A stretch of 64,000 nt of DNA from Bryum argenteum (lineage: Eukaryota; Streptophyta; Bryopsida; Bryales; Bryaceae): the NCBI GenBank assembly GCA_037043015.1, contig CM073322.1, positions 5,777,601 through 5,841,600 on the forward strand. The letters are read 5' to 3'. The translations under genes and the position numbers were made by a program. The notes below the pieces were generated by a model, which ran no database searches, had not been told where the DNA came from, and was given only the letters and a program-made list of their open reading frames with translations. Below, one piece after another: positions 37,029-64,000 of this stretch. The first letter of the stretch is position 1; every line of letters starts with the position of its first letter.

Positions 37029-40000
37029 CTAGCTGCTGCACAGGTACTTCTTTACAAGGTTTCGGACACCATCTGCATCAACCGTGATTCCCACCTCCAC
37101 TGGAGGCACGCCAACCCAGGGATTGTTCCCCTTCCAACTGCGAAACACATTCAAAATTGAAGAGTCAGCAACTTTGACACTTACAATAACAAACAATAAT
37201 GTCACCCTTCACTCGGCTAAAAGTTCCGAGTAGAGTGATATCTGTGCACTTTCCAGTGTTGATTACAAATAAGTTAAGAGGGAGATGTTAGCGTCTCGTT
37301 ATTGCAATGAATGTGAAGTAAAAAGAAAGTCAACTTTCATCTGTCTCACTTCACCGAGGGCCAGAATTTCTTCTTTCCAGTTCAGTATATGATGTGAGTA
37401 TATTCTTTAAAACATGCGAGGTTCGTAATTGATCACTGCGGCTATTACTATGACGAGCTTCGGTATCGCCAAACATGTTATTTTAACACCCAACCCCTGT
37501 AATGTACAGTACACTATTGAATGAGAGTAGAGACAGTTGTAAGCAGCAACGTACTGTTTGAGTCCGTAGTCAAGGATGGTGTGGCCTACGCATCGGCCCA
37601 CAGTCTCTACTCGCACTGCTCCCTTTCTGAAGGTGAACAGCGATGGGTCCAACAGTGCTGCCATGCACGTCGGGTCGTGAAGAAAAATTCCTGCCAAAAA
37701 ATAATAAAAAAATAGAACGAATGGAGGTCAGGCGTTTCTCCCCCCCCCCCCCCCCCCATGGGAATGACATCCTTGATAAGTTCATGTTTTTGTGAAGTTG
37801 CAGGAAGTGAGGAGGATTATACCATCAAAATGGTCGGATTCTATGTGCCATTGGTGATAAAAGCGACAACATTCATAGACATATTGCCCGAATTTCCCTC
37901 CGGAATCTCTTATCTCAAGTAAATCTTCTTCTGCAATTATCACACCACAAAAATAACCAGTTGAATGCGTATACTGCTCAGGCTCACAAATTCCTTTAAA
38001 CACTACCCCAGCTCTGTCTCCTATACCAGCACTTGGTTAACCTTCATATAACAAGTTAGGTCACATTGTTATCATACTGTTTAAAGCCCAGAGCTCAGGT
38101 GTACATTTAAGAATTGGATACTGGACATACCTCACACGTTTAAAAAGTGTAAGGATGCATTGCCAAGCAATCTTCATGGGGCTGACTACCGTGCTATCAC
38201 TTATGGTGACCTTCAACCTCCTTAGAAAGAAAAAAACAGACATAGTACTTCGCTTAACAGATTTGGATCTGGAACTCAAATATCACATATCGCCATTGGT
38301 ATTAGTAAAAGCGTTGTATTGATATTTGACGAAGAGGCCTTTACCACTAAATATGACCTGCGTGGTCAAGTTGATTCCTACGGCGAGAGTTTTCATTCCA
38401 GCCGTGAACGTAATATCTGCAGCATCGGGGTCACAAAAAATCTGCATTCCAATCATGCACACTTAGCTAAAGACTCGTCCTACATAATGAGACAAAAAGA
38501 ACGAAAAACCCTTCCGGTACGCCTCGTCCAATAAAGTAGTCATAAAGTGTCAAAGTGTCCTTCATGTAACTGCAATACCACTGTTGCAGTCATCGTGGAC
38601 AAGTCGTACTAAAAGAATTTCTCTTCTAGTGAACAGCAATAAATGGTGTGGGAGTAAGGGCGTGATCCTCACGTTTCGGGAATGAGACTTTTGCCTTGTC
38701 AAACTTACATTGGCTTCCGCAGCAGGATTTACATTTCCACACGCGTTGAAGGCACCTCCGAGGACCACCAGTTGGCCAAGGTTCTTGGCGAAGTTAGGGT
38801 CCTTCTGGACTGCCTGCAATGGATCCACCAGCATCCTCAGCTTGATAATTTCCATAAGAGCAATTTCTCATTACCCAAAATGGTTTTGTAGTTGTCCCTG
38901 TTGGAGGAAGTACTGACCAGTGCGATGTTAGTGAGGGGGCCGAGGGCAACCACAGTCACTTCGCCAGGAAACTCTGCTGCTTTGCTCACAAGAAAGTCTG
39001 GAGCACTCATTGGTGCCTTGTGGCCTTTGGGCTTGGCTTTGTGCGTTTCTCCGAGTCCGTCTGATCCATGAACAAAATACGCAATTCGGGGTTTCACGCA
39101 CTGTTTCAAGAATCCAAAAATGACGAGTTTATGCAAATGCAGATGATATGCACAATCGTGCAGCCAAAGATGCAAAGGAAAACCAAAATGAGCCCAAAGG
39201 CAAAAAAAGAAATAAAATCCTCGAATCTCAGAGCGTTGCAGCCCAATAACTATGAACATGTGTGCACCAGTACTCGATCTCAAGTATCAGGCATTTGCCA
39301 TACGGATTCATAGTAAGTCTAGAAAGAGCTACACGACGATGGTCGAGAGAAGAACCTGTAGTGATTCCGATGGACCTTCTGCAACTGGTATGTCGGGGCA
39401 CCCTGCAAGTTCACACTGATGAATAAAACTACACTGTCAGCACATGCAGGCAAGGGTTGGGGAGGTAATTATACAGAAAATCTGACAGAAGCTCCACCTG
39501 CAGATTTCTAACATTTTGTGTTAATTTGTCGTCAGAAACTCCTTAAGAGCTGCATGCGCTTCAATAAGGTACAGCTCGATTACAGCAAAAGCATGAAATG
39601 CGAAAAACCTCAACAACAGAAACTATGCAAATAACGAAGTATATGCTCACCAGCCAGAGGGCATTGATTGTCGCCAAATCAGTGTTAACGTTGCCAAAAA
39701 TGGTAGTTAGTCCTATAACTTCAACCTCGGGCGCTTGAAACGCCATAATAATCGCCATCATGTCATCTACAAGACATCAAACATCAGATCCACTGCTTAC
39801 ACTAAGAAAATCAATGTATCAAAAAAACGAGTGATGAAATCCGAAACTAACTACAGTTGAAATTTTCACCCCAATTAGGTTGAAATACAGCACACGAACC
39901 CCTACTGTAATCGAACGCAATTGGGAATAATGACAGCACCTTTAATTTTAGGGCATAGCTTGCGTTCTTAACCGGGGTTAATTATTGAACTTATGCTACA

Positions 40001-43190: not shown

Positions 43191-43928
43191 TTGGGCCGCC
43201 TACTTTTACATGCATGGGGAGTTGAGTATGTTTTCATTTTGAAGAATAATATTGTACTAATCATTGGAGGAATGCATCTCGAGCATCTTGCTTGGTGGAG
43301 TACACTTTTATGTTATGAGTATCGGAGTTGTCGAAGAAGACAACCGCTAGCTGATGAGTATGGAGATGGGGGAGTCAATAAGTGTGGAGATGGGGGAGTC
43401 AATAAGTGTGGAGATGGGGGAGTCAAGTGTGGAGATGGGGGAGTCAAGTGTGGAGATGGGGGAGTCATGTGTGGAGATGGGGGAGTCAAGTGTGGAGATG
43501 GGGGAGTCAAGTGTGGAGATGGGGGAGTTAATAAGTGTGGAGATGGGGGAGTTAATAAGTGTGGAGATGGGGGAGTCAAGTGTGGAGATGGGGGAGTTAA
43601 TAAGTGTGGAGATGGGGGAGTCAAGTGTGGAGATGGGGAAGTCAAGTGTGGAGATGGGGGAGTTAATAAGTGTGGAGATGGGGGAGTGAAGAAATGTGGA
43701 GAGAGTCAAGTGTGGAGATGGGGTAGTCAAGAAATGTGGAGATGGGGGAGTCAAGGTCAGAAGGGAGAGTGCTCTAAGATGGAGGAGTATCAATACTGTA
43801 GCGCTAAGCTTCTTCATTCAGGGTTACATCATAGTTGTAGAAGTCAATATAATACCATGTACTTATCCCAAACACTAACAGGTGTCAACTTAGGGCACGC
43901 TTGTAAGTCCACCTTTAAAGATTTATAA
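43191..43928 (+). other. Open frame through the minisatellite (245 codons)
   Basis: It encodes repeated CGDGGV(N)K between a non-repeat start (MGRLLLHAWG) and end. No known family, no splice context and open alternative frames argue against a protein, but the repeat keeps frame. It is recorded here because it is the longest frame in the 42-46 kb interval. Confidence 0.2.
43355..43770 (+). repeat. 21/24-bp in-frame minisatellite (GTGGAGATGGGGGAGTCAA)
   Basis: About 18 copies of a G-rich unit based on TGTGGAGATGGGGGAGTCAA, 21 bp long or 24 bp when an extra AAT(A) is present. Both lengths are multiples of three, so a frame from 43191 to 43928 stays open (repeating CGDGGV with K or NK), and two other frames are open as well. 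The last copies degrade after 43690. Confidence 0.95.
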
Positions 43929-46036: not shown

Positions 46037-48916
46037 ATGGCGGTGCCTGACCTTCACGGAGGCGACAACAAACCATCAGCTCCGAAGAAAGTCATCATCG
46101 ACACTGATCCCGGCATTGGTAAAAATTCTCCATCCCTACCCAGTTCCATCGCTGACCAAATTGATGTCCTCCGCTCTTCGTGCCCTGCATTCTTTTTGCT
46201 CCTCTCTGTTGCCGATCCCTCGCTATTATCTCTCGAGTAAATTTTTTGGCGTTTAATTAGAGTCTAAACACGGTGATAATTGAGGGTTTGAAGCCTTTAC
46301 TTGCATGTTTTTGGTGTCGACATGGTGGTGATTTTTGGAATGTAGCCAGTATGTATTTGTGTGATGGCAGGCTCCTCTGTATTTTCGTGACGTTTCTCAT
46401 CGTTTAATTTCCTCGAGAGTCTCGTTTTTGTTCGAGAGTCTTTCATTAGCTGACGAGGCTCCTATCTGGTAGACTAATTTTTAAAGGTCATATTACATTG
46501 ATCCTAAGAAATGCTCGACCATGTGTGTAGATGATGCGATGGCTATATTTTTCGCCTTGAAGTCTCCGGAGCTGGATGTCATCGGCCTCACCACAATCTT
46601 CGGCAACGTGCAAACAGTCACAGCCACTGTCAATGCACTCCATCTGGTAACAATGATCACACATTCTTCGTTTAATCAACAAAATGGAATGTCCATGTCC
46701 TACATCTTCTCGAAGCTTTTTGATTGCTCTTCCTCTGGATCTGCGGACATGGAACACCTCCATCAATTGAAAAGGTCATGTCCCGATTCTAAAAGATTCA
46801 TCACAGTATGTGCTGGATTACCTCTAAACGATGATCACCACACATACGAGTATGATTTTGTTTTCTTACAAAACATGTATTCGAAGGGAAGCTTGCATTG
46901 AAAGTGACAATGCTTAACCTTGGTTCTCTGCAGTTGGAATTTGCTGGTCGAGAAGACATCCCCGTTTCCGAAGGATTCAGAACATCTCTAAGGGTACGAA
47001 CTTACTCACAAGAGATTGTATTCATGGATAGCACTGTCTTTGATACGATTAGTGGCAGGGGTTTGATTATTATTATTTTTGCTATTGTTTTATGGCAGGG
47101 GGCTGTGAAGGAACATATCGCTGATTTCGTGCACGGCTCCGATGGGCTGGGCAACACGCATCCCACTTTATCAGACAGGAAACCTATCGATACATTTGCC
47201 CCCGATTTTTTGATACAAAAGGTCAATGAATTTCCGGGTGAAGTTACCATCGTGGCTCTGGGCCCACTCACGAACCTTGCAAAGGTACATGTCCTTTCTG
47301 TATTCTCTGTATTGAAAATTTGTACCTAAACTCCAGAAATCTTAATCTTAACCAGAGTCAGGCTTAATTTCACCCTTCAATTATGAGTATTGCTTTCACG
47401 AGAGCGTGATTGATTGGTGATATTTTGCCCTTTCGCGTTTCTGTGATGGTGAACCTTCCTTTTTCGCTCAAGAATGAATGGACGTGATCGCAGGCAGTGG
47501 AGCAAGATCCAACTTTCGCCAAGAAGGTGGGCCAGATTATCATCTTGGGAGGTGCTTTTCAAGTGAATGGCAACGTAAACCCGGCCGCTGAAGCAAACGT
47601 AAGTACTGAATCCTCGACTTTCTGCGGAAGGATTCATACCAGTTTCTGATAGAGGTGTAGAAGCTCAATTAGCTAAGAACTGGAGTTTCTGTGCAGATAT
47701 ACGGTGACCCCGAAGCAGCAGATATTGTGTTCACATGTGGAGCTGACATACTGGTTGTCGGAATTAATATCACCCATCAAGTGTACTGGACAGGTATTAA
47801 TACTGAAAGCGGCAACCCTCAATCTTCCTACTTTTTCTTTCTTTGGCTACGGAAGTTCATAATTGTAAGCATATGTTAATGAAAAGGGGGCCGTGGATGA
47901 ATTCCTGTAAAAAGTTTGGATATGCTCTACAATTCTTCGTCGTGATGCAGGGCAAGACCTGGCAGACCTGGGCGAATCGAGTAGCAAGTTTGGCAAGTAC
48001 TTGTATGCGGCATCGCACTTCTATGCCAAATATCATCGTGAAGCATATGATATCGATGGTATGCAATCTCTCTAGCCCCTGGCCTGCTAGATTCACGAAC
48101 TTATTAGTTCTAGATCATTGCTAATCTAATGGAACAATAAGCCGTTCATTAAAGTCAATGGGTTGTCATTTTATTATGCAAAGGACACTACTACCAGAAT
48201 GTGAGATTGTCTTGATCGAAGGCATTGGCTAATAATGACTTTTGAATTCTCGGTTGGCAGCTATCTACTTGCATGATCCAGCAACAATGGTGGCAGCTGT
48301 TGACCCTTCACTGATGACATACGCCAAGGGGGCTGTCAGAGTCCAGCAAGAGGGAATTTGCCGGGGCCTCACACTCTTCAACAACTCGAATAAACTGTAT
48401 TGTTCTCCTCCTCTCATGCTCTTTTAACTCAGAAACTCACTCCCTCTTCATCTCAAATATGAACAGCCAGATAAGAATCCTCTTCGAATGTCCACCATTG
48501 TCGATTGCGGACAATAAAAGGCTATCTAAATTCATCCCTTTTCAGCTGTAAATAACGTCACAACCATGCATGAATTTGAACCATATCAGTCTAAAATGTA
48601 CACCATAGGATTGAGTGATGATCGACTACATGCTCCAAAGTCATTGTAGTATGACTATTTTATGACATCCTGTTCTCAATTTTCCGACGAGACCAAACAA
48701 ATCATCCCAGATGCTCTATTTTGTCACACCTCGAAAATTCTAAGCCCCGTTTCTATTGAGCCCCGTTTCTATTGCATACATGGACTAACAGGGCACTGAT
48801 TTTGCAGGTGGCACGACCCAACAGATTGGTGCGGGATCCCACCAGTGAAAGTAGCAGTGGCAGTCGAGAGTGAACGAGTAGCTGCGCTTCTAAAAGAACG
48901 CCTTACAGCTCCGTGA
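46037..48916 (+). CDS. URH1: Nucleoside hydrolase (copy B)
   Basis: Paralogue of copy A with the same reaction. Nine exons: 46037-46118, 46531-46646, 46934-46993, 47099-47284, 47494-47598, 47697-47793, 47951-48058, 48261-48396 and 48808-48916. They sum to 999 nt, 332 residues. Exons 2, 3, 5, 6, 7, 8 and 9 have exactly the same lengths as in copy A; exon 4 is one codon longer and exon 1 seven codons longer. Landmarks: KVIIDTDPGIDDAMAI (canonical Asp cluster), GLTTIFGNV, FVHGSDGLGNTH, VALGPLTNLAK, GNVNPAAEAN, YLHDPA and a C-terminal VEVA-like segment. The chosen start is MAVPDLHGG. An in-frame ATG at 45953 would add 28 residues (MFRFVWEISLAV start) resembling a signal or organelle leader; which start is used is open. 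Confidence 0.95.
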
Positions 48917-50638: not shown

Positions 50639-51464
50639 ATGTCTAGAAGTTGGGAGAATTTCGGAACGTCGGAAAATTGGGGACCGGATGCTTGGCGTGA
50701 TCATGTTCCGATGCCAGCTCGGCAAAAACTAGTGTTAAAAATGTAAGCCTGAAGATTCTCGGCCTCCATTCTTAGACTCGTTACCAGATGAATGCACAAT
50801 ACAATTCGATACGGGCTATCTGATCACTTTCTGAGACGAGATTAGTATGTCATTTCTTAGTATTACTTTAAATTGGATCCGTAATTATACTTGAAAAAAT
50901 GTGTAGTTGGAAAAAAATGACTATTCCTCTAGATAGCATGGGTGTAGTCTCACCCGAACATTCATGTGAATCTTCTTTCCTCTAGATAGCATGGGTGTAG
51001 TCTCACCCGAACATTCATGTGAATCTTCTGCTGTTGTATGCTACAGGTTGTCCCAGTTGCAGCTAAACAATCCCGAGGTAGGACAGGATGAGCTTCTCAA
51101 GATTGCGACGTCGATGGAAGAACAAATCTTCAAGGATGCACTCGATCGAGTAAGTGTATTAATAGATCTTTGCTTTCCAACAAGCCATTCAATGCAAGTG
51201 CTGAGATTGATACCGTTGCAGTAGCTCAGAAGTTCCTATTTTCCATCAGCGATTGGCATCATTCTCTGTGTTGTACAGGACTACTACAAACGGAAGATGG
51301 AAAGTAAGATGACGGAGCTGGAGAGGGGCGGCAAATTGAGTGAGAGTGAATTGAAGGGCAACGAGAATGTGACGGAGGGTGCCGAGAATGTGACGGAGGG
51401 CAACGAGAATGAGACGGAGGGTGGTGAAGAGATCGAGCCAGAGGGCAACGAGGTTGAGACATAG
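50639..51464 (+). CDS. Stand-alone KIX-domain protein A (MED15-type)
   Basis: Three exons, 50639-50742, 51047-51149 and 51279-51464; 393 nt, 130 residues. The KIX fold is a three-helix domain that in MED15 and CBP/p300 binds activation domains of transcription factors. Here exon 1 supplies helix 1 (AWRDHVPMPARQKLVLKM), exon 2 the middle (GQDELLKIATSMEEQIF) and exon 3 the last helix (DYYKRKMESKMTELE). These align with the MED15 pattern W-R...R-x-x-I-V...G-Q-E/D...L-x-x-I-A...E-E-x-I...D-Y-x-R-K-I-S. The tail (about residue 90 on) is an acidic repeat based on N-E-N-V-T-E-G. It has no Gln-rich region, so it is not a whole Mediator subunit. Introns fall at the same sites and phases (2, 0) as in KIX genes B and C. 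The third helix is the most diverged of the three genes. Confidence 0.75.
50924..51029 (+). repeat. 53-bp perfect tandem duplication in intron 1 of KIX A
   Basis: The unit beginning TTCCTCTAGATAGCATGGG occurs twice back to back (50924-50976, 50977-51029) and ends only 18 bp before exon 2, so it lies over the branch-point region of the intron. Confidence 0.95.
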
Positions 51465-52871
51465 ACCACTTAGAATGAGTTTGAGGAGCTGAGGATCTAG
51501 TTTTTGACTTGTGTGTGCGCATATGCATTTGAAATTTTTCAGCCACAATCACTTTCATGTATTTTGTAGTGCTTTTATGAAGTGAGTACACCAAGTGGTT
51601 ATGAATAGAAATTACAGTTAACCACCCCAGCAAAAATCAAGCAATTTCGAATTGAGCTCTTGCTTCCAATTGCCTCGCTCTGCATAGGAGCGTCATTGCC
51701 CTAATTCTTCTTCAGAAATTAGTGCTTCATCAGAAAAATATGGTACCAAGTGTGCAATTCAAATAAAAAGCAAGAGACAAGGTGAGGAGGTAACAAAAAC
51801 TTAAAGAACTAAAAAGAAAAGGTGATATCACCTTGGGACACCAAAGGTTTTTTCTACAAAGCATACTCATCCAAAAGGCAATAATATTTTTTGCTGGTAG
51901 TGAAAACGTCTCTTAAATTTTTAAACTAAAATCTCGTTTTTCTTTTTTGACATAGAGAGTGAAATTTTGAGAAGCAAGGATTAGATTATGTTCATATAAA
52001 AGAAGATATTCAACTCTTTTATACAGTTGAATGAGAACTCAATCTGTGCAAAAGTTGAACAATTTGAACATTTACACCTTTAGAAACTGAACATTCAGAC
52101 CTGCAGAGATGGAACAAATTAGAATGGGAAGAATCGAACGATCCCAGATAGAAACCTCCCTGTGACAATTTTTTCATGAAATTTGTTGGAAGTGGAAATC
52201 AAAATATGTTGCACGCGATGCACATAATGAGCATAGGAATCGAACAGACGTCTCTCACATGCCTGAAACTCAAAAGTCTCACATCCGAATTTGATTCAGA
52301 TTCTTCAACCCATGTGCATCAGACTCTCTGCGTGTCTGTGCAGACATTTGTACAGACATTAACAAGCAGAGATCGTGCTTCACTTGCTTGCAGCCCATTT
52401 TTTGTGCCGGAGAAGACGATTGCATTTAGATTTTGAAAGTGGGACAACTCGGCAGGTAGCCTAAGTATGATTTTCATGTCTTTTAACATCCTTAGGATTA
52501 GGGAAGTCACCATTGCGATCGGCACTTCGATGATCATAAATGGAAGTCAGAGAGGAAAACAGGAGGCTCGTGACAAAGGAAGTTCGTGCATCCATATGTG
52601 TTGAGAGCTTTTGGCTGCTGTCATGTTTTGATCATTCATGTTTTCGATCAAGCTTGTGATCTTACCTTCCGCTTTTTTTTGGGTCTGTCTTGAGCATCGG
52701 TGATTTTTGTGATGCGATTTCAGAACAGTTTCAACCTTTTTCGATATTCTGCCACTGCAGGAGTTTGGCTGTGCAATGGAATCTAACATAACCTTGAATG
52801 TCTTGCTCAGCTGACTGTGGACAGAGAAGCCACGCTTTTATTGACAATTTTATTGAAATACGAGCTCCAAC
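51465..52871. other. Intergenic DNA between KIX genes A and B
   Basis: Short frames only, none recognisable. No KIX-like exon is visible here on either strand. Confidence 0.4.
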
Positions 52872-54128
52872 ATGGAGAAATCTTGGCGTGAGTCGGTGCC
52901 GCAGGAAGATCGGCAAGACATGGTGAAAAGAATGTAAGTATGGCCTCCATTCTTACATGTTGCTTTCTGCTAGGTTTCTGCGATCCTTATAAACATCATT
53001 ACACAAGAGTTTGTTTATTAGTTTTAGAAACATTAGTTGCGAACCATGACACTAAATGTTACATGTCAGTGTAGGGCTTGTACAACATTCACCTTCAAAA
53101 TATAACACTAAATGTGAGAGGACTCTGCATGTTTATTTTCATGATTTCGCTTTCAGTTGGATGCACTTGGAAAAGTTGTCGGCGGCCATGGTCTTGATTG
53201 TGGGCATGTGTGCTGCAGCCATGGTGTGTTGGTACTTTTTATGGATCCAAATGCAGGAGAGGATGGTAGTGTTGAGTTTCTAAAGCTCGCACGGATGTTC
53301 GAAGACAAAGTCTTTCTAGATGCTCATGATCACGTAAGTCTGCTTTCCAACACCCCTATGCAAGTGTTGTGTCTCATAGCGGTAAAATTCTTACTATTTC
53401 TTTTGAAGAGCTCAACTTGCACCACATTACTTTGTAATTTGTGAGTTCTACAAGAAGTTGACCCTATCAAGTTTGGCATGTCTCTACAGCAAGATTATCT
53501 TCGACAAATCTCAATGAAAATGTTAGGGCTAGGCAAGGAGAATGGTATTGTGATTGAAGAGAATGACGAGGAGGTTGATAAGAACGAGGAGGTTGAGGAG
53601 TATAAGAGAGAAGTTAATGCGAATGAGGAGGAGGTTGACGAATATGATAATGAGGAGGAGGTTGACGAATATGATAATGAGGAGGAGGTTGACGAATATG
53701 ATAATGAGGAGGAGGTTGAAAAATATGAGGATGAGGAGGAGGTTAATGAATATGATAATGAGGAGGAGGTTGACAAATATGAGAATGAGGAGGAGGTTGA
53801 CGAATATGAGAATGGGGAGGAGGTTGACAAATTTGAGAATGAGGAGGAGGCTGTCGAATATGAGAATGGGGAGGAGGTTGACAAATATGAGAATGAGTGT
53901 GAGGTGAATAAGAATGATAAGGAGGAATATGAGAATAAAGGCAGGGTGGATAAGAATGATGAAGAGGTGTATGAGAATATTAAGGAATGCCTTGTGATTG
54001 AGGTAGAGGTCAAGGAAATTGAGAGAGTAGTTGATGCAAATTTGACCGCATTGATAGAGGCTGACAAGAATAAAAATAAGACAAAAGTGGACAAAAATTC
54101 AATGATATACTTCTCTCATTATGGCTAG
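52872..54128 (+). CDS. Stand-alone KIX-domain protein B with long acidic repeat tail
   Basis: Three exons, 52872-52933, 53219-53333 and 53490-54128; 816 nt, 271 residues. The KIX domain spans about residues 1-80: SWRESVPQEDRQDMVKRI, then AGEDGSVEFLKLARMFEDKVF, then QDYLRQISMKMLGL. The exon 2 acceptor (GTGTGCTGCAG) is chosen because it alone keeps phase with exon 1 and restores the KIX alignment; KIX gene C uses the same acceptor word. From about residue 87 to 205 the tail is a 9-residue repeat close to N-E-E-E-V-D-E-Y-D, about 12 copies with E/K/N/F variants, giving a highly acidic, probably disordered region. Then comes a short Lys/Asn-rich end. Acidic tails of this kind can act as activation domains or histone-binding segments; that is inference. 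Confidence 0.75.
53570..53910 (+). repeat. 27-bp coding repeat in KIX gene B
   Basis: In-frame tandem copies of a 27-bp unit (AATGAGGAGGAGGTTGACGA core) encode the acidic tail. The first copies (53625-53710) are almost identical, later ones diverge, suggesting recent expansion on the 5' side. The complementary strand is also open but codes only a low-complexity Ser-rich shadow. Confidence 0.95.
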
Positions 54129-54382
54129 ATTGAAAATTTTCTACCAAGTTATTATTTTTGTACAAATTTAAATTAATACAAAGTTTGAGTAATATTTTTT
54201 AAACAAATCAAACAAATTGAATAGAAGAATCTTGTATTACTAATACGCACTTATTTTTATGAAATATAAAGATGAAATGAAATCATACTATCTTTTATAT
54301 TTTATAAAGATCAATTGAAATTTTGTTTTTATTATACAAAATGGGAACGCCTCTACAACTTTGATGTTCTATTTGTTTATTG
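54129..54382. other. 3' flank of KIX gene B
   Basis: AT-rich sequence up to the target duplication of the next SINE; no gene. Confidence 0.4.
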
Positions 54383-54395
54383 GTGGTCATCATCT

Positions 54396-54717
54396 GAGGA
54401 GGTCGTGGGTTCTATTCCCCATGCCGGCGTGGTGCTCACCACTATAGTCCACCCAACTATTGTGGGGGGTCTTTGGGCCTTGTTGTATGGGTACCTCAAA
54501 GCCCTTTGGGGGGATACTATGTCAAGTATCTTCAAGGCATTAGTAACTAGGCTAGAAACTAGCGTAGTTATAGTGTCCACCCTCGAGAGGGGGAAGTAGT
54601 ATTGTTCCAATTTCCCCTTGTCCGGTGGCCATCGGGATATTAGCATTACGAACGGACACTTCATTCACGCCGGCCCCTTAGAGAGGGACCGGAGTTTCTA
54701 ACTAACTAACTAACTAA
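54396..54717 (+). mobile_element. SINE copy, 5'-truncated, with 13-bp target duplication
   Basis: It begins inside the tRNA-like head (GAGGAGGTCGTGGG, B box GGTTCTATTCC at 54408-54418) and ends with a (CTAA)n tail. The 13-bp word GTGGTCATCATCT flanks both sides perfectly (54383-54395 and 54718-54730). This confirms insertion by target-primed reverse transcription. It is the better-preserved copy of the element at 27518-27873. Confidence 0.9.
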
Positions 54718-54730
54718 GTGGTCATCATCT

Positions 54731-56829
54731 TTTTTATGTCTTTAGAATGAATTTGATTGTGAGTAAATATTGGTGTTGCATGTGATGAAAGAATTGCGTT
54801 ATCACAAATTGAAATTGATGATACAACTTCTCAAAAACCGTTGTATTTGATCCTCAAATGTAATTGCCATAATTTTTATAAGTAAAAACTCAAATTTCAC
54901 TTTAGCCTTAGTCACAAACACGTACCAAAGTCTCTTGATAGTAAAGAGTCATTTTGGAACATCTCTACCGATATAATGTGAAGGGACCCTACAAGATGAA
55001 TAACCCACACACGCCCAGGTCCTAAGAAGTCACCAAAAACCTTAAGTAATCAGGTAAACCGGGAATCCCTAAAGTGACCTGCTACTACAAGGCTGAGATG
55101 GCCAAAAAGTTGAGGGTAGTTGCAAGGGAAGAACCTAACCGGGAGGAAGGAGAGATAAGTTTGGGTCACATTTCTGGGCACGTGAATGAAAGGAAAAAGT
55201 GTTCTCATCCAACACTTCCTAAATAACTCAAATATTCCTCTGAAGTACCAACATTCTAGGATGCCCATCGATATGATTCTTGTCATGCTCACTACCTTAC
55301 TCTAGTATCAAATGCCTGCCTTAATACTCTTCTTACTTTACCTTTCTTTTGATGTCAGCTGCCCGCCAATATGAGTCTCGTCCGGACTTTGTTATCGTCG
55401 TATTCTTTTTAACTTCCTTCTTTGATATTATTTGTATTTGGTTTCTTGTTTGTTCAAGGACATGTCTACGTGGATTCAATGTTTGCTTAACTCCATGCCA
55501 TCAAGAAATGTATCAATTGTTCTATGTGTTTTGGAATTGCTCTGCTTCATCAATCCTAATGTTGTCCTAGAGTGTTGGAATGCTCATCGAAATGTTGTAA
55601 GGAGACCAGGTCTCAAGAAGTTGTTCCAAGTGTTGTTGGAACAATTCAATGATGGTCTCTAGTTGAAAATGCCTTTGCAGGACTTGAAGCCCCTCATCAC
55701 TTTAATTCTTCCTGAGGGCGTTTCTAGTATGTTATTCTTTGTGATTGTGAACGTCTTGAGAATTATCCTCGGTGTTACAAGCTTCTCAAAACTCTTTATT
55801 TCAAGCGCCAATCTCCGGATGTGTGTCAACCTGACCAAGTACTGGTTGGTCAACGTTAATCTTATCTCTCTTCGTAGAACTTTGGATGCTGCTTGCTACA
55901 TGCTTTGGCCTTTTCAAGGAGATTTCAACCCATCAAGCATGAATATTCATAATATATTTACAGATATTCTTCCCTTCATTTATCCCTTACATAAGTTTAA
56001 GTCTACGTCGGATTATATAAAGCATTCTCGTAGGCCACGACAAATACACTATGAAGTTGCACATGCCTTGATTCCTTGAATTACTAGAAAGCCCTTTCTT
56101 GAGAACTTTCCTCCTTTTAGGTTGTCAGCTGCAGGCCGACTCTCTTCAAAACTTGTAAGTAAACTCTTTTCTAATTTAAATATAGAAATATATCCACACT
56201 ATGGTTGACCAATTCTTTGCAAATTGGCATTTGTTGGTCGAGGGCCAACTTAATTATAGACTATAGAATTTTTCCATAAATAGTTAAATATGAGTTCAAA
56301 TGACCTCAGCCAAAAAGTTTACCAAATCAACAAGGGGATGCCTAGAAAGGTTACAGACACAATCATCAAGCTTTTTGGTAATTTTCAAATCATTTAATTC
56401 AAAATTGTCAAAATTTGAGATTCTCGATGTTTTTGGAAAAAAGCTCAAAATAAAAAAACTCATAAAGGTAACTACTCACAATTCCCTTTTTCTTAAAATA
56501 AAGTACAATAAATGTCATGCTTGCTTTTCCAAATCACTCATTTATGCCTATTTTCAAAGAAAATTGCACAAATGTTTAAAAGCGGAATGAGTCTTCAAAA
56601 TTTTGCTTATGCATTTTCAACTTATATATCTACATGGAGAAAAATATGAGATTTTATTTTTGGGCCACAAATCTTAAGTCTCGCTTTGCTCAAATTAGAC
56701 TAGGTCTCCCACACAGTGCCAAAAAAACGGTTTGCATCAATTTTGAATGCTATAATCCCACAATTGGTGCAGATCCAATGGTTGAATTTAGAAATGGTAA
56801 TTTTGTTAGTAGTTTCCTTTGAGACCTTA
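54731..56829. other. Intergenic DNA with unassigned open frames
   Basis: Two neighbouring plus-strand frames (55432-55662, with a Leu-rich LLNSMPSRNVSIVLCVLELL segment, and 55663-56079, starting MKMPLQDLKPLITLILPEGV) could be remnants of one gene. I recognise no domain and could not build a spliced model, so I do not call them genes. Confidence 0.3.
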
Positions 56830-57059
56830 CAATTGAGAATCCTATCAATTTGAAAATATTTCAACCTTACCTCAATCTCCACAAGGTGACAAGAAATCGC
56901 AATTTCTGAGTTGGAGATAAAAAACATTTGGACCTTTAGTGGTTTTATTGAAGGGTTGAGTCTTTAACACATGAAAATGAGAAAACTTAATATATAAAAA
57001 CTGTGTTTATATCTTGTTAGTTAATCACCTCTTTTTTCAAGAGGTAAGAAGACAAATTG

Positions 57060-57440
57060 AGATATCATTATTTCACGGAGCGTTTGGCAACCAACCAATA
57101 TTATGATGTTTCACTCTTTTACCCAAACTCAAGATATCAGCGATATCACAATATTTGTTAGTGACCATCGGTTTGGCAACCCTTCATTTATACAAATTAA
57201 TACCATGATATTTCCAAACTCATGATTTTTCAGTAGAAAAAAAATCAAGATATTCCCAAAATCACAAGTCTCCTCAACCATCCGTTTGGCAGCCCTTCAT
57301 TTTCATCATACAAAAGGATCATGATATTTCCAAAGATCATAATCTTTCATGGAAAATCCACCTTTTCCCAAAATCGCAATTTCCATTAGTAACCACCCGT
57401 TTGGCAACCTATCAATATCATGATATTCCAAAGGAATTGA
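57060..57440 (+). repeat. Tandem blocks rich in TATCATGATATT
   Basis: Four or so imperfect blocks, each containing CCGTTTGGCAACCC followed by ATCATGATATT words. They are present also in the right copy of the duplication (60640-60980). Confidence 0.7.
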
Positions 57441-58167
57441 AATGGAGGTCTCGACGTCAATCTTTCAACCCTTCCCTCCTCTCAATGATCGACTGATTGC
57501 CCTTCCGTGCCGTTTGCCCTTTGTATCTACTAAGAATATAATTAAAGTTACTAAATTTGCTCAAAATGTACTTAAAATACTAAAAAATAATAATATTGAA
57601 AGCTTGTAATTAAAAATACAGACAATGAAGATCGTATAACTATGACGATATTTTATTATTGAGTTAGGAACCAACAACCAAGCAACCCTTTATATTCTCA
57701 TTATCATGCTTTGCATTGAGTTAGGTACCAACTACCAAGCGGCCCTTCATATTCTCATTATCAATTTATCATGCTTTGTGAAAATCCTGCCATCCTGGTA
57801 ATCAATTAAAATGGTAGTCCTATAAATACCATGATATTTTATTATGGGGTTACCAAATGTAACACTAGTTTTAGAATATTTGAGGTGAATTCCAATCCTT
57901 TGTAACTTCTACTAAGCTTTTGGCAATCTTTGGTTTACCTATTTTTGTAAAACCTCAATTTTCTTATAATTTTCACTTTGTAAACTTACCTGTGATGAAA
58001 AGGTAGGTTTATTTTATGGTGAAGAGGTTCACTGGTCAAGAAATTAAGGAGAAACCTGAAATGTGTTCGACTTGAAATTCAAACTCTTGAGATATGATTG
58101 GTTGAAAATGAAACTCTTCATAGACTGATGGCTTACTCTACTCTAGTGTAAACTACCCTAAAACTAA

Positions 58168-58175
58168 TATAAATA
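58168..58175 (+). promoter_or_regulatory. Candidate TATA box for KIX gene C
   Basis: TATAAATA about 535 bp upstream of the start codon, conserved in position in the duplicated upstream region of KIX locus D (61809-61815). Confidence 0.5.
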
Positions 58176-58703
58176 TGCATCGCATCACATTACCACCAAA
58201 GCACTTGCTTCTTCACTCTGTCGCCACAGGGTACGTCTGTACGTTGCAGACTTGCCACACCCGCTTTCGGTGGCAATTTCGGAGAGGGAGGTTGTGGAGC
58301 GAAGCCCGGACAAGGAGGAGGAAGTGGACAGGAGGATTGTCTTGTGCACAGGATTTCATCCCACAGATCCTATTTCTTTCGCAGGTACAGTTGTTTGCAC
58401 CTGTCTATCTCGATTTCCATTTCATTTCGACCCTCGACCCAACCTTTCGTTTATCTAGATTTGCTGTGACATGGACGCTCTTGCTTCGGGACGAGCGTGT
58501 TTCTAGGGTCAGGAGTTTGAGATCTTGGACGGACGACAGTGAGGTTAGGCAGAGCTGATCGGATGCGAGGCCGGGGTCAAGCCATCATTCGAACCGAGAA
58601 AGTCTGATTCACCTTGTTCCGTTTTTGTGCAGCTGGCTGCGGCTACGGGAGGCTCATCCTTTGCAGCAATTGTAGAGGTTGGTGTTACTTTACAACTATC
58701 AAC

Positions 58704-59414
58704 ATGGATAATTCATGGCGGACTTCGTTGAGGCACGACAGTCGGACAAGGATTGTGACAAGAATGTAAGTCTGTCAGAGGTTTCTGGTCTCTACTTTCG
58801 CATAGTACTCAATAACCCACTGTTCGTTTATAAGGATACCGACAGGTATCACGTCTCCTGTGAACTATGTTGCGGGTGGTGATCAATTGTTTAAGCTGTG
58901 TATCGGGGATTTCCAAAGCTCTGCAAAAGCGATGGCATCCTGACCTGGTCGGAGGAACATGATCACAACCAAAGAGGCGAAGTGGAATATGAGTTTAGTC
59001 TGTATGTGAAATGAATGTCGGTGTGCTGCAGCTTGGTCACGTTGCAGCGCCACATGCCAGTTGGTGGGCAGGACGGCGTGGATGAGCTTTTAGAGATCGC
59101 ATGGCGATTCGAAGAGAAAATCTTTCAGGCTGCAACTGATCACGTAAGTCTTTCGCATCGCACACAACTCAATTCCTGCGTATGAGAAGTACGAGTGCAG
59201 CAGTTTTCAAAGCTCATGGTGTAAGTTGGAAATCTATGTTTTGCATTCGATCCTTGTTGAGCTTAGTTTTTGTGACATGTCTTCACAGGAAGATTATTTT
59301 CGAAAGATCTCGCTGAAGATGTTGTCATTGGAGACCGAGGCCAATGAGCCCCAAAACAGCTATCCGCCTGGAGCTCAAGTTGCAGAGCAGGTTGATTATT
59401 CTTACCAAGACTAA
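58704..59414 (+). CDS. Stand-alone KIX-domain protein C (MED15-type)
   Basis: Three exons, 58704-58765, 59032-59143 and 59289-59414; 300 nt, 99 residues. It is the clearest KIX domain of the cluster: SWRTSLRHDSRTRIVTRI, then LQRHMPVGGQDGVDELLEIA, then WRFEEKIFQAATDH and EDYFRKISLKMLSLETEAN. These correspond helix by helix to plant MED15, including the G-Q-D/E-G turn and the D-Y-x-R-K-I-S-L-K-M-L helix. It ends 25 residues later. Exon 1 is exactly as long as in gene B, and both introns are in the same place. A Gln-rich frame follows downstream at 59585, so the gene may be a truncated derivative of a MED15 copy. As a KIX-only protein it could compete with Mediator for activators; inference. Confidence 0.85.
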
Positions 59415-59584
59415 CATGTAACAATATGTGGGGACATGGCAGACGTGTGTCAGTGCGTTTATGTTGAATATCTTGAGACTTAGTCAATCAATTCGAGTTG
59501 AAGAGAGAAGTAGGTGTGTCATTCATTGTATGGTGGACATTTCTGTGGCCTTATTAGTAGCAGTTGATATGTTAGGTTCTTCAG

Positions 59585-59743
59585 CTGCTGCTAAGGCGAA
59601 ACCTCGCTCAAGCTCAAACCGCCGTAAACGGAGTTCTGTCGAGCCAGGCTCAACAGCAGCAGCTTCAGGAGGGGCAGCAACTCCAGCGTTGTCAGCTACG
59701 GCGGTTATCGGCCCTGTCTCTGCAGGAGAGTCGGAAAGCTTAG
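59585..59743 (+). pseudogene. Gln-rich fragment resembling the MED15 region after KIX
   Basis: After a TTCTTCAG acceptor-like word a 52-codon frame reads LLLRRNLAQAQTAVNG followed by SSQAQQQQLQEGQQLQR and then a stop. MED15 proteins carry a Gln-rich region after the KIX domain. I could not join it in phase to exon 3 of KIX gene C without another exon. It may be a relic, or part of an alternative transcript. The overlapping Ala/Ser-rich frame (59428-59760) is a shadow reading of the same DNA. Confidence 0.35.
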
Positions 59744-59760
59744 TTTTAGGTCGCAGTTGA

Positions 59761-60320
59761 CACATGAAATGTCACATGTCTAGATGGTTGAGATTATTTT
59801 TCGAAGGTCTTGTTGAGGCTGTTGTCACTGTAGACCAAGGGCAACCAGGTTAGCAGGATGCTGGACTTGAATTAGGCCGCGAATGGTTTACAAGTGACAT
59901 GAGAGTCGGGTAAAGAAAGAAGAATTGGGTGAAGTGAATGGGGGAAGTGATCAGCCAGTGGAGATGAGGGGATGCCGACAAACTTGTATCAATGCTTAGC
60001 ATGAATGCATAGGGATGAACGCCAATGTAAGGGATTCAATATAAATGTATTGTGTGCTTATGCACTTAATGAAGGACGAAAATGCTTGTAAAGAAGTTCT
60101 GTATAAGGTAAAGCACATCATGTCAACCATTATGGGTTGGAAGGAGCCTTTGCGTGTGAGGGGTTGGGCTCTGCCCAACCACGAAGCTCCAGTGAGTAGG
60201 TGTTTGTTACTCGTTGTAAAGAACTGTGGTCAGAATATCTTGCGGGTGTTCAAAGTGACCTCAATCCAAAATACCTTGCTGGTTGCTACTACAATTAGTT
60301 GTTTTGGCCAGATTCTGTAA
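59761..60320. other. 3' flank of KIX locus C
   Basis: No recognisable gene. A frame at 60045-60320 has no known domain. Confidence 0.35.
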
Positions 60321-60388
60321 AGTCTCCAATTTGAGGGTGCAGTTTAGCTCGACTCGAGCTAAACTGTCATTAAATTTGGAGACTAAAA
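60321..60388. repeat. Long hairpin with a perfect 12-bp core palindrome
   Basis: The core is AGTTTAGCTCGA, one C, then its exact complement (60341-60365). Outside it, AGTCTCCAATTT on the left pairs with AAATTTGGAGACT on the right with one bulge. It lies at the left boundary of the right duplication copy. Confidence 0.9.
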
Positions 60389-61808
60389 ATCTCCCAAAAT
60401 AACGAATATTGAGATCTTACCTCAATCTCTACAAAGTAATGAGAAATCCTTGTTCTTGGGATTGGAGATAATAAAACTTTTGGATCTCCGGGGGTTCAAT
60501 TGAAGGCTTCGGTCTTTTATATATGAAAATGAGAAAACTTATGTAACAACTTTCTTTATTAGTTTGTTACTTAATCACCTTTTTTCTAAAAGCTAAGATG
60601 ACTAATTAAGATTTCTTGACTTAGGGTGTGTTTGGCAGCCACCCAAATATCATGATATTTCACCCTAACTCGAGATGTTAGGAATACCACAATATTTGTT
60701 GTAACCATCGGTTTGGCAACCCTTCATTTTCGTAAAAAGATTATCATGATTTTTCATGAAAAATCAAGATATTCCCAAAATCACAATATTGTCGTTCACC
60801 ATCCGTTTAGCAAACATTCATTTTTATGATAAAAACAATATTGCCAAAAGATCATGATCTTTCATGGAAATTTGAGATATACCCAAAATTGCAATATGTA
60901 CCAGTGACCACCCGTTTGGCAACGCATCAATATCATCATAATGACAATCATGATATTCCAAAGGAAATGTAATAAAAGGTCTTGACCTCAATCTTTTAGC
61001 TCATGCCTTTCATTGATCACCCTTATGCCCTTTTTATCTACTAAAAATATAATCCAAGTTACTAAGATGTATTTAAAATTATTGAAAGCTTGTAATTCAA
61101 AAAACTCAAAATGGAGGTGGTGTTAATATCACAATATTTTATTATTGCGATGCCAAATAGCTCTTCATATTCTTATTATCATGGTATGTGAAAAAAATAT
61201 TATAACGACCGAAAATAGCAATCTTGTAAATATTACGATCTTATAATATTGGGTTGCCAAATGTAGCCTTAGTTTTATAGCTTTTGGGCAAAATTCAAAT
61301 CCTCTATAACTTTGATTAGCTTTTAACAATCTTTGGTTTACCTGTTTTTCTACAAATAATTTGGAATCAACCTCAAATAATCATGTGTGTCTAAAGTGAT
61401 ATTTTTCATAGTATAAATTCAAAAATAAGACCAAAGATCTTAGGTATCCCAAACTCAAAACCTAACATACAAAAACTCAACCACAAAACCAAACCACAAA
61501 ATTTCTTTTTCTAACCTGAACAAACTCACCTGCTATAAGTGTCATGAGACCTTGGCGATTGTGAATGGTCCGAAAGCCCGCCCATGGCCGGCTGGGAGCT
61601 CCTATTTAGAATTCCCTGCATTCATTTTCGATCAAATTAAAAGGTTGGTTTACAGTATGATGAAGAGGTTCATTGGTCAAGAAATTTAGGAGAAATCTAA
61701 AATGTGTTTAAATGAGATTGAGACTCTTGAAAACTAAGTGGTTAAAAATGAGATTCTTGATAGACTGACAGCTTATACTATTATAGTGTAAACCAACCCC
61801 AAAACCAA

Positions 61809-61815
61809 TATAAAC
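61809..61815 (+). promoter_or_regulatory. Candidate TATA box for KIX locus D
   Basis: TATAAAC, in the position equivalent to TATAAATA at 58168 in the duplicated upstream region. A MITE lies just downstream, between it and the exon array. Confidence 0.4.
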
Positions 61816-61842
61816 TTGTATCTCATCGAACTACCTCCACAC

Positions 61843-62173
61843 AGGTGAGCTTAAAGCCGGCCAGCGAGCTGGTCACAGAGCCCCTCGACCCTACCTGCCC
61901 GCCGGATCCCCTGCCCGGATAGAAAATCCATTATTCTTGTGTTTTGCGTTTTGGAATACCCTCTCATGTTGTTTTTTTTTTTTAAAATTGAGTTTCAAAA
62001 TGCGGTCTACGACCGCGTTTTACTCTATTGGGTGCCTCTTGGAGCTATGGGCGACATCAACCATTAAAAATTAGGGGGCAAATATACCCCATTATTTATT
62101 TGGCGGGCAGGGATTATTTGCCCCCATGAGAGGCTCCATGACGAGCTCGCTCGCCGGCTTTAAGCCGATCCCC
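61843..62173. mobile_element. MITE with GC-rich inverted repeats (331 bp)
   Basis: The ends are GAGCTTAAAGCCGGCCAGCG on the left and, complemented, GGCTTAAAGCCGGCGAGCGA on the right; the repeat extends about 35 bp with mismatches. The word CCACAC flanks both sides (61837-61842, 62174-62179). The equivalent place in the left duplication copy lacks it, so it inserted after the duplication. No coding capacity. Confidence 0.75.
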
Positions 62174-62591
62174 CCACACCACTTGCCTCTTCACTATGTT
62201 GACAACCCGAAGTATATGTCACTACGTCGCACAGAGTTTGCCAAACCCACTTTCGGTGACAATTTCGGACATGAAGGTTGAAGAGCGTGCCTAGTTGGGA
62301 AAAATCGTGCTTGAGCTTGAGGTTTCGTAATTTAATTACACCTTTTCTTTCTCGGTTTCAGCTCTCTGTAGTCTTTGATCACATCCTTCATCTTGCTTTG
62401 CTCTGTAGGAGTTGCTCTTGCGTTCTCTTGGAGTTTTTATTCGGAAGACATGCTTTAGATTGATGCCGGACGTAAAAGAATGAGGTTGCCGGTATTAGGT
62501 TTGAATGGATGCAAGGGTTCTCGCTGTCTGCTACTCTGCTAGAAAGGAGTTTGGACTTTTCTCTAATCCATCGTTATTGGTTTTCTCTTAG

Positions 62592-63528
62592 TTGGATGCA
62601 GAAGGAGCCCAACTCAAAAATTTGTGGAGGATTTTGTTTTCTCACGACACTCGGTCAAAGATAGTGAAAAGAATGTAAGTCTCAAATACTTCTTTTTCTT
62701 GATTACATCGTTCATCTCGATCTGGTGTGTCTGAGTAGCTCTTGCGTTTTCTTGGAGTTTTTATTTGTAAGACAAGCTTTAGATTGGTGTGAGACGTGGA
62801 ACAGTGAGGTTGCTGACACTAAGTTTGAATGGATGTAGGGTTCAAGCCATCTTTTCGCCAAGAAAGGAGTTTGGATTTTTCTAATCTATTGTTATTGGTT
62901 TTTTGCTAGTTGGATGTAGAAGGAGCCGAGCTCGAGAATTTGTCGCGGAATTTGTTTGCGCAGGACACTCTTGTCAAAAATAGTGAGAAGAATGTAAGTT
63001 TCAAATATTTCTTTTTTTCCAACACAACGTTCATCCCAATTGGTGTGTCTGAGTTGTTCTTGCGTTCTCTTGAAGTTTATATTCAGAAAACCAGCTTTAG
63101 ATTGATGTGTGACGTAGAACAGTGGGGTTGCGCATTTAGTCCGAATAGATGCAAGCGTTGAAGCCATCTTTTCGGTGTCTGTAAGGAAGGAGTTGAGATT
63201 TTTTTCTAATTCATCGTCATTGGTTTTTCTGTAGTTGAATGCAGAAGGAGCCTTGCTCAAATATTTGTGGCGGAGTTTGTTTGCGCATGACACTTGGTCA
63301 AAAGTAGTGAAAAGAATGTAAGTCTCAAGTATTTCCTTTTCTCCAGCACATCGTTCATCTCGATTGGTGTGTCCGAGTTGCTCTTGCGTTCTCTTGAAGT
63401 TTTCAATTAAAAGACAAACTTTAGATTGATGTGGGACATAGAACAGTGAAGTTGCGTATTGGGTTTGAATGGATGCCAGGGTTCCAGCCATCTTCTTGGT
63501 GTCTGCAAGAGAAGAGTTTCAAGTTTTT
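62592..63528 (+). repeat. About 320-bp tandem repeat containing a KIX exon
   Basis: Each unit comprises the exon, GTAAGTCTCAAATA-like intron start, the GGTGTGTCTGAGTTG-CTCTTGCGTTCTCTTG stretch, a TTTAGATTGATGTG stretch, and a pyrimidine-rich acceptor (TCATTGGTTTTTCTGTAG type). Conserved intron as well as exon shows duplication of whole genomic units by unequal exchange. Confidence 0.9.
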
Positions 63529-64000
63529 AACCTCAATTCCGTTAAAATGGCACAATTCCTTGTGCCATATTGCCAAAGCCATGTTGTGCCAATTTGGTCG
63601 CGTTTCTGAAACGTGCCATTTTACCGGCATATTTTTGAACTCAAAATCTCAAAGATTTATGCTTGCAAAATGGCACGTTTTTTAATATCACCCACATCTT
63701 CCATTATATCAACAAATTTCTGTAATATCATCAAAAATTCCATAATATCACACTATTTGATGAATTTTGACCTTCAAATTTTGTCGAAGGGCAGTTTTTT
63801 CTCAACAGCCGCTCAGAAATATCTCTGGTTTTGAGCGGCCGCTCGGAAAAATTTGCTCTATTATGTCAAAAAATGACAAAAACGAGTGTTGTTTTTTTCA
63901 TTTTTTCCACCTTAAATTGTGCCATTTTACCAGAATATTGCCAAATTAACGGAATTGAGGTTTTTTCTAATGGATCGTCATTGGTATTCTTTAAGTTGGA
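62592..64000 (+). CDS. KIX locus D: tandem array of first KIX exons (partial)
   Basis: Only the left part lies in the window. Exon-like units at 62592-62674, 62910-62993, 63235-63317 and 63996 onward (cut by the window edge) each follow an AG acceptor, and the first three end at AAT|GTAAGT. Unit 1 reads LDAEGAQLKNLWRILFSHDT then SKIVKR; unit 3 reads LNAEGALLKYLWRSLFAHDT then SKVVKR. These equal helix 1 of KIX genes B and C (W-R...R-x-I-V-x-R) and end in phase 2, like them. Unit 2 is one base longer near its end, which breaks the frame. Spacing is 318 and 325 bp, then 761 bp because of a 435-bp MITE. Exons for the rest of KIX must lie to the right. The units could be mutually exclusive exons or a decaying array. 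Confidence 0.55.
63529..63963. mobile_element. MITE inserted in the KIX exon array (435 bp)
   Basis: The terminal inverted repeats are AACCTCAATTCCGTTAA on both ends (17 of 17), with a further AAAATGGCACAA match slightly inside. T-runs flank both sides. Removing it restores the 326-bp spacing of the array, which confirms insertion. Related fragments occur at 2772-2945 and 41928-42178. No coding capacity. Confidence 0.85.

Follow-up and report, generated by a model that had tools for sequence, protein, structure and literature searches.

The Mediator tail subunit MED15 (MED15a, or NRB4, in Arabidopsis) carries a KIX domain of the KIX_2 type, which is the docking site that connects DELLA and other plant activators to Mediator. 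The DELLA 9aaTAD is reported to bind the MED15 KIX and to recruit Mediator, an interaction described as conserved from Marchantia polymorpha to Arabidopsis (PMC11714745), and point mutants in the KIX of Arabidopsis NRB4/MED15a are reported to fail to perceive salicylic acid (PMC5533460). Plants also contain what the KIXBASE account calls "standalone KIX domains" (PMC5668377). Here we describe a row of small KIX genes in Bryum argenteum that begins in a 64,000-nucleotide stretch of contig CM073322.1 (C2; positions 5777601-5841600, assembly GCA_037043015.1), referred to below as the window, and continues beyond it. The row consists of tandem 5' partial copies of the adjoining MED15 gene, which comprise exons 1 to 3 and, in two copies (g3 and g5), the start of exon 4, and which range from intact to decayed. 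Three of the intact copies (g1, g2, and g6) each encode a single KIX domain of the MED15 type with an acidic tail behind it.

The gene type is already known in flowering plants, in which both stand-alone KIX proteins and neighboring KIX genes occur. The angiosperm stand-alone and multi-KIX proteins (e.g., AT1G15790) are likewise short, have a MED15-type KIX, and lack the remainder of MED15. The adjoining gene numbers of AT1G15790 and MED15a (AT1G15780) suggest that this Arabidopsis KIX gene lies beside its MED15. In Sinapis alba, the neighboring KIX genes N665_2183s0003, s0004, and s0005 share one 41.7-kb contig, and close gene numbers (names only) in Sinapis alba, Brassica napus, Rehmannia, and Bauhinia suggest KIX clusters there too. 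A KIX alignment search found 782 proteins, and 118 of the 120 listed as best, in a ranking that favors multi-KIX proteins, had two to five KIX pieces. Among the 138 proteins counted, 20 were single-KIX proteins; all 20 came from a separate protein search, and several are fragments running into an intron. Whereas the best-listed angiosperm proteins mostly have two to five KIX domains, the row genes have one each, and three of them have acidic tails. MicroProteins are small single-domain competitors that derive from a larger parent and usually inhibit the parent's complex. The row genes are likewise small, contain one interaction domain, and derive by duplication from a parent that uses that domain; inhibition of the parent, the usual effect of microProteins, is for the row genes putative. 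The KIX8 and KIX9 proteins of seed plants are also small KIX adaptors in transcription, but one account describes them as sharing ancestry with the HAC KIX and as rarely detected in mosses (PMC10565003), and the window proteins score below the cutoff of the PF02172 profile. We found no description of a single-KIX, acidic-tailed form beside MED15 in the open-license papers searched. This form, and its coexistence with copies of the MED15 C terminus alone (see below), are what is unusual here.

Three intact genes lie within the window, all as spliced models.
50639-50742, + strand: g1 exon 1, N-terminal extension and KIX helix 1
51047-51149, + strand: g1 exon 2, mid KIX (blastn match to MED15 exon 2 at 51086-51155)
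51279-51464, + strand: g1 exon 3, final helix of the KIX followed by the acidic tail and stop
52872-52933, + strand: g2 exon 1, blastn match to MED15 exon 1
53219-53333, + strand: g2 exon 2, blastn homology to MED15
53490-54128, + strand: g2 exon 3, carries the long acidic tail
58704-58765, + strand: g3 exon 1, blastn homology to MED15
59032-59143, + strand: g3 exon 2, 94% identity with MED15 exon 2
59289-59414, + strand: g3 exon 3, whose stop sits in sequence equivalent to MED15 intron 3 (read-through), unless spliced at 59391

The original prediction, made from the nucleotides of the window, was of three small genes sharing a phase-2 and a phase-0 intron. The rebuilt models splice cleanly, with all six introns GT-AG and, in every gene, phase 2 for the first intron and phase 0 for the second, and the gene cluster is real. 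The acceptor of g2 exon 2, read by hand, is the CAG preceding 53219, as a closer TTTCAG runs into a stop. The predicted products of g1, g2, and g3 are 130, 271, and 99 amino acids (aa) long and score 49.7 bits (E = 3.6e-13), 56.1 bits (E = 3.6e-15), and 90.7 bits (E = 5.6e-26), respectively, against KIX_2 (Pfam PF16987; curated cutoff, 25.6 bits). The profile check thus bears out the MED15-type KIX that had been proposed. All copies fell below the cutoff (27 bits) of the CBP/HAC-type KIX profile PF02172 (g1 unlisted; g2, 24.5; g3, 20.9; g5, 19.8; g6, 18.6 bits). No other Pfam domain exceeded its cutoff in g1, g2, g3, or g6, which makes these KIX-only proteins. In contrast to MED15, the four lack the glutamine-rich middle and the conserved C terminus, and they do not qualify as MED15 subunits. 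Within intron 1 of g1, two exact 53-bp copies stand head to tail (50924-51029), and their exactness indicates a recent duplication.

Among solved structures, the g3 product matched the Arabidopsis MED15a KIX (9zjn chain C; E = 4.1e-22); it also matched a 137-aa protein from Ceratodon purpureus (E = 1.7e-33; 74% identity). Judging from its end, which resembles the start of MED15 exon 4, this Ceratodon protein may be a truncated MED15 model. Folding covered the Ceratodon relative P0001. The first AlphaFold model (6 sequences) was poor (predicted template modeling score [pTM], 0.43), with no KIX entry among the 50 matches listed. The second (24 sequences; pTM, 0.53) had three main helices, and its eight best matches in the PDB were KIX structures (best E = 0.063, none at 0.001). 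9zjn was absent from the structure matches listed for either model.

We fetched 59 kb beyond the window and mapped exon homologues there; positions past 64,000 are also in window coordinates. The row extends about 21 kb past the window on the same strand, with a copy lacking its ATG, an intact copy, and then a full-length MED15.
73305-74186, + strand: g5, exons 1 to 3 open, CTC at the position of MED15's ATG
80491-81333, + strand: g6, intact, 133 aa, KIX_2 88.8 bits
84782-93970, + strand: MED15, with KIX exons, glutamine-rich exons, and C terminus, 3.4 kb downstream of g6

The g5 copy scores 93.6 bits against KIX_2, and because CTC replaces its ATG it could start only from an exon further upstream. 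In g6, the end of exon 3 and the tail are internally duplicated. The MED15 model has 21 exons, with all 20 introns GT-AG and 1,428 stop-free codons; exon ends were picked by eye, and the printed model finishes one base before the TGA. Its KIX_2 score is 89.7 bits (E = 1.2e-25), and 65 of 70 KIX residues are identical to a Ceratodon purpureus protein. The last 373 residues match Gb_13858 (1,232 aa, with KIX_2; EukProt) at E = 2.2e-37 and 35% identity; from its name prefix, we take this to be probably the MED15 of Ginkgo. It was the only match among 7,412 candidates in the protein database, where no annotated bryophyte MED15 was recovered, and the best match of the C terminus in the PDB had an E of only 0.8. 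Judged by its sequence, the gene at 84782-93970 is the genome's own MED15. Between g6 and MED15, a 71-bp tandem duplicate (98.6% identity) lies at 83061-83201.

The row is the place where KIX domains of this type were found in the genome (258.8 Mb in 25 contigs). All four exon matches over the KIX_2 cutoff (8 candidates scored) fell in it, at C2 5836636-5863124, as did all 13 matches of a KIX protein query at E values up to 10. These searches used single exons and best candidates only, so that diverged KIX domains may escape, and g1 was reported by neither. An assembly artifact was ruled out: the copies differ at about 5 to 50% of sites, and the 123 kb contain no N.

The parent MED15 closes the row at its downstream end, in the same orientation, so the copies are 5' partial duplications made in place, and the intron positions that they have in common are simply those of MED15 exons 1 to 3. 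The proposed spread by tandem duplication is borne out. In g3, g5, and g6, respectively, identity with MED15 reaches 90, 91, and 95% for intron 2 and 94, 96, and 96% for exon 2. Intron 1 (63 to 72%) and the 600 upstream bases (54 to 59%) are less similar, against a baseline of about 43% for shuffled sequences in such alignments. This mosaic pattern suggests recombination or conversion centered on exon 2 to exon 3. The upstream regions of g3 and g6 are 89% identical to each other. Behind g3 (59001-59726) and g5 (73641-74492), homology to MED15 runs through intron 3 into exon 4, and second exon-3 relics are present behind both.

For g1 and g2, in contrast, blastn homology to MED15 is confined to exons and up to 16 flanking bases, with exon 2 alone detected in g1 and all three exons in g2. 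Aligned to those of MED15, their introns are near the shuffled level (z scores, 0.8 to 1.9), whereas g1 exon 2 (z = 3.6) and g2 exons 1 and 2 (z = 3.9 and 4.1) lie above it; g2 exon 3 does not (z = 1.6). Measured against MED15, the comparison of exons with introns thus speaks for conserved exons in g2 and, in g1, for a conserved exon 2. With homology to MED15 left only in exons, g1 and g2 are the oldest copies, and g3, g5, and g6, in which MED15 introns still match, are young. The original prediction had called for a tree including the genome's own MED15, and in our KIX tree (28 rows) the neighbors of g3, g5, g6, and MED15 are Ceratodon P0001 and a JGI protein. The branches of g1 and g2 are long and join each other, a join that is possibly false. 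The six row members do not form one side of a single branch.

As the original prediction had it, the tails differ between copies. The g1 tail has 47 aa (net charge, -13; 34% Asp/Glu) and the g2 tail 198 aa (net, -64; 43% Asp/Glu); the g6 tail has a net charge of -13 (30% Asp/Glu), and that of g3 is short (27 aa; net, -6; 22% Asp/Glu). Acidic tails are thus present in three of the four intact copies, whereas the 78 residues directly after the KIX of MED15 include one acidic residue (net, +3). The g2 tail is largely a 27-nucleotide coding repeat (EEEVDEYDN; 53527-53931) with long open frames on both strands. Similarity among tails is weak (g6 to g1, 38 nucleotides at 79%, E = 0.002; g6 to g2, 45 nucleotides at 73%, E = 0.088), and with such weak matches in low-complexity sequence, common descent of the three acidic tails is unproven.

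The row also contains decayed material.
59585-59743, + strand: relic of the glutamine-rich MED15 exon 4 behind g3, open when joined to g3
59726-59838, + strand: second, broken copy of the end of intron 2 and exon 3 behind g3, 73% identical to MED15 85646-85757
62619-62685, + strand: locus 4, exon-1-like copy a, open from the acceptor
62934-63017, + strand: locus 4, exon-1-like copy b, frame damaged
63268-63334, + strand: locus 4, exon-1-like copy c, open from the acceptor
64023-64088: locus 4, exon-1-like copy d, past the window end, frame damaged
64326-64368: locus 4, fifth exon-1-like copy, past the window end

Neither relic behind g3 was in the original prediction; an old donor at 59391 joined to the exon-4 relic would lengthen the g3 frame to 144 aa. 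A partial fourth locus had been proposed in the window. It is indeed derived from a KIX gene, but it is really a decayed array of exon 1, with three copies inside the window and two beyond it. No exon-1 copy contains the KIX-frame ATG, the single exon 3, at about 68.9 kb, contains stops, and exon-homologue mapping found no exon 2 between the exon-1 copies and this exon 3. With some exon-1 copies also damaged in frame, an intact locus 4 was ruled out. Several diverged repeat families at 56921-58163 and 60473-61803 (73 to 86% identity; offsets of about 3.4 to 3.6 kb) show that the sequence preceding g3 has a duplicate in front of locus 4.

Tentatively, and at a little under an even chance, we read g1 and g2 as KIX decoys of MED15. 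They would be small nuclear KIX proteins that bind the activation domains bound by MED15, e.g., the DELLA 9aaTAD. A free KIX without the rest of MED15 would hold the activator and not bring Mediator, and g1 and g2, as decoys or microproteins, would damp MED15-dependent transcription. The original prediction had already raised competition with Mediator, which is a reasonable hypothesis. The acidic tail may cover the KIX groove in cis, which is possible since KIX domains bind activation domains, or it may attract other partners. The copies g3, g5, and g6 and locus 4 would be young products of birth and death, and g3 and g6 could act like g1 and g2. Every step past the encoding of a KIX domain is one that we infer. 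The case for constraint on g1 and g2 rests on several features taken together: they are old, their splice sites are intact, their frames are open, and their profile scores are strong.

Several results weigh against this reading or do not decide it. The ratios of nonsynonymous to synonymous substitution (dN/dS) of the KIX codons against MED15 were 0.48 for g1, 0.42 for g2, 0.60 for g3, 0.18 for g5, and 0.63 for g6. Because a neutral copy compared with a strongly constrained parent would give about 0.5, these values are no proof of constraint on g1, g2, g3, or g6: those of g1 and g2 are indecisive, and those of g3 and g6 are also expected of a neutral copy. Proof of selection from dN/dS was not reached. 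In neutral simulations (3,000 runs for each copy), the KIX stayed stop-free in 5.2% of runs for g1, 8.1% for g2, 36% for g3, 47% for g5, and 41% for g6, so that even for g1 and g2 the openness of the KIX frame says little by itself. Simulated amino acid identity reached the observed value or more at a frequency of 0.0013 for g1, 0.0003 for g2, 0.031 for g3, 0.0007 for g5, and 0.0053 for g6 (again 3,000 runs each). This simulation sets too low a bar, since every change is placed on the copy even though silent changes also accumulate along the MED15 branch; as the ATG-less g5 passes it easily, we did not use it as proof. Exons 1 and 3 of g1 are at the shuffled level against MED15 (nucleotide z = 0.7 and 0.6; introns, 1.8 and 1.3). 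When g1 is compared with g2, the introns (51 and 56%; z = 2.9 and 2.1) prove about as similar as the exons (60, 52, and 47%; z = 2.3, 1.9, and 0.7), and nothing in this pair therefore points to constraint on the exons in particular. The open frame of the g2 tail is partly due to its repeat, as the opposite strand is open too.

Alternatively, the whole row could be debris left by unequal crossing-over, with MED15 as a hot spot that yields 5' copies which drift and die without function, a reading that we consider possible though doubtful. The broken locus 4, the g5 copy without an ATG in place, the exon-3 relics behind g3 and g5, the dN/dS of g3 and g6, which fits neutrality, and the roughly equal similarity of introns and exons between g1 and g2 all agree with it. 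Debris as old as g1 and g2, however, would be expected to have lost frame and splice sites, and both genes retain a KIX_2 match (E = 3.6e-13 and 3.6e-15) and all of their splice sites even though their introns can no longer be aligned to those of MED15. It is unlikely that g1, g2, and g6 instead add activation, with the KIX binding activators and the tail binding another KIX, a histone, or Mediator. It would suit this reading that three of the four intact copies have acidic tails where MED15 has a nearly uncharged stretch, and the yeast acidic activator Gal4 is reported to bind Med15 (PMC8044209); the tails are nevertheless of low complexity and unproven common descent, and that of g3 has merely 27 aa and a net charge of -6. 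The original prediction also had the KIX exons captured from elsewhere, of which we saw no sign. Capture by an unrelated gene or mobile element, followed by spread, would fit the differing tails, but it is highly improbable: the row itself ends, on that strand, in the parent MED15, introns and, in g3 and g5, exon 4 sequence were copied along with the exons, and no KIX_2 match over the cutoff was found outside the row among the 8 candidates scored in the genome.

When the genome was searched with the C-terminal 270 residues of MED15, 12 matches came up, 4 in MED15 itself and 8 on contigs C3, C4, and C7. The eight have 36 to 53% identity to MED15, and one of them contains an internal stop. Five such places hold exons corresponding to MED15 exons 18 or 19 to 21.
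C3 21927727-21929048, - strand: C-terminus-only paralogue
C3 2964481-2964954, - strand: C-terminus-only paralogue
C4 15006170-15026545, - strand: series of C-terminus-only units
C7 14867921-14870755, - strand: C-terminus-only paralogue
C7 16089950-16091364, + strand: C-terminus-only paralogue

By eye, the C-terminal exons at one C3 place are ordered and open, and there are stops inside several units. A tblastn search of 20 to 30 kb around the five places (110 kb in total) found C-terminal exons but no convincing KIX (best E = 0.27). Copies of the MED15 C terminus alone thus coexist with KIX-only genes in this genome. MED15 might have been split into two families of free modules, the KIX with an acidic tail in the row and the C terminus alone, dispersed and in a second tandem cluster, although we think this rather improbable. 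The C-terminus-only proteins are presumed to represent the Mediator-side half of MED15. If the split were true, each family would be a competitor of one MED15 half, and the plant could tune activator access to Mediator in two independent ways.

Elsewhere in the window, open frames at 38837-39286 (- strand) and 46485-47329 (+ strand) resemble, by a putative motif, parts of nucleoside hydrolase genes and are possibly an inverted pair. An open frame at 43191-43928 consists of a tandem CGDGGV(N)K repeat whose other strand is also open, and it is probably a minisatellite.

The row, which runs from recent copies with parental introns to diverged genes with acidic tails, shows how a coactivator domain can turn into a free-standing protein. 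It offers a direct test case of whether a free KIX domain damps Mediator-dependent transcription in a plant.

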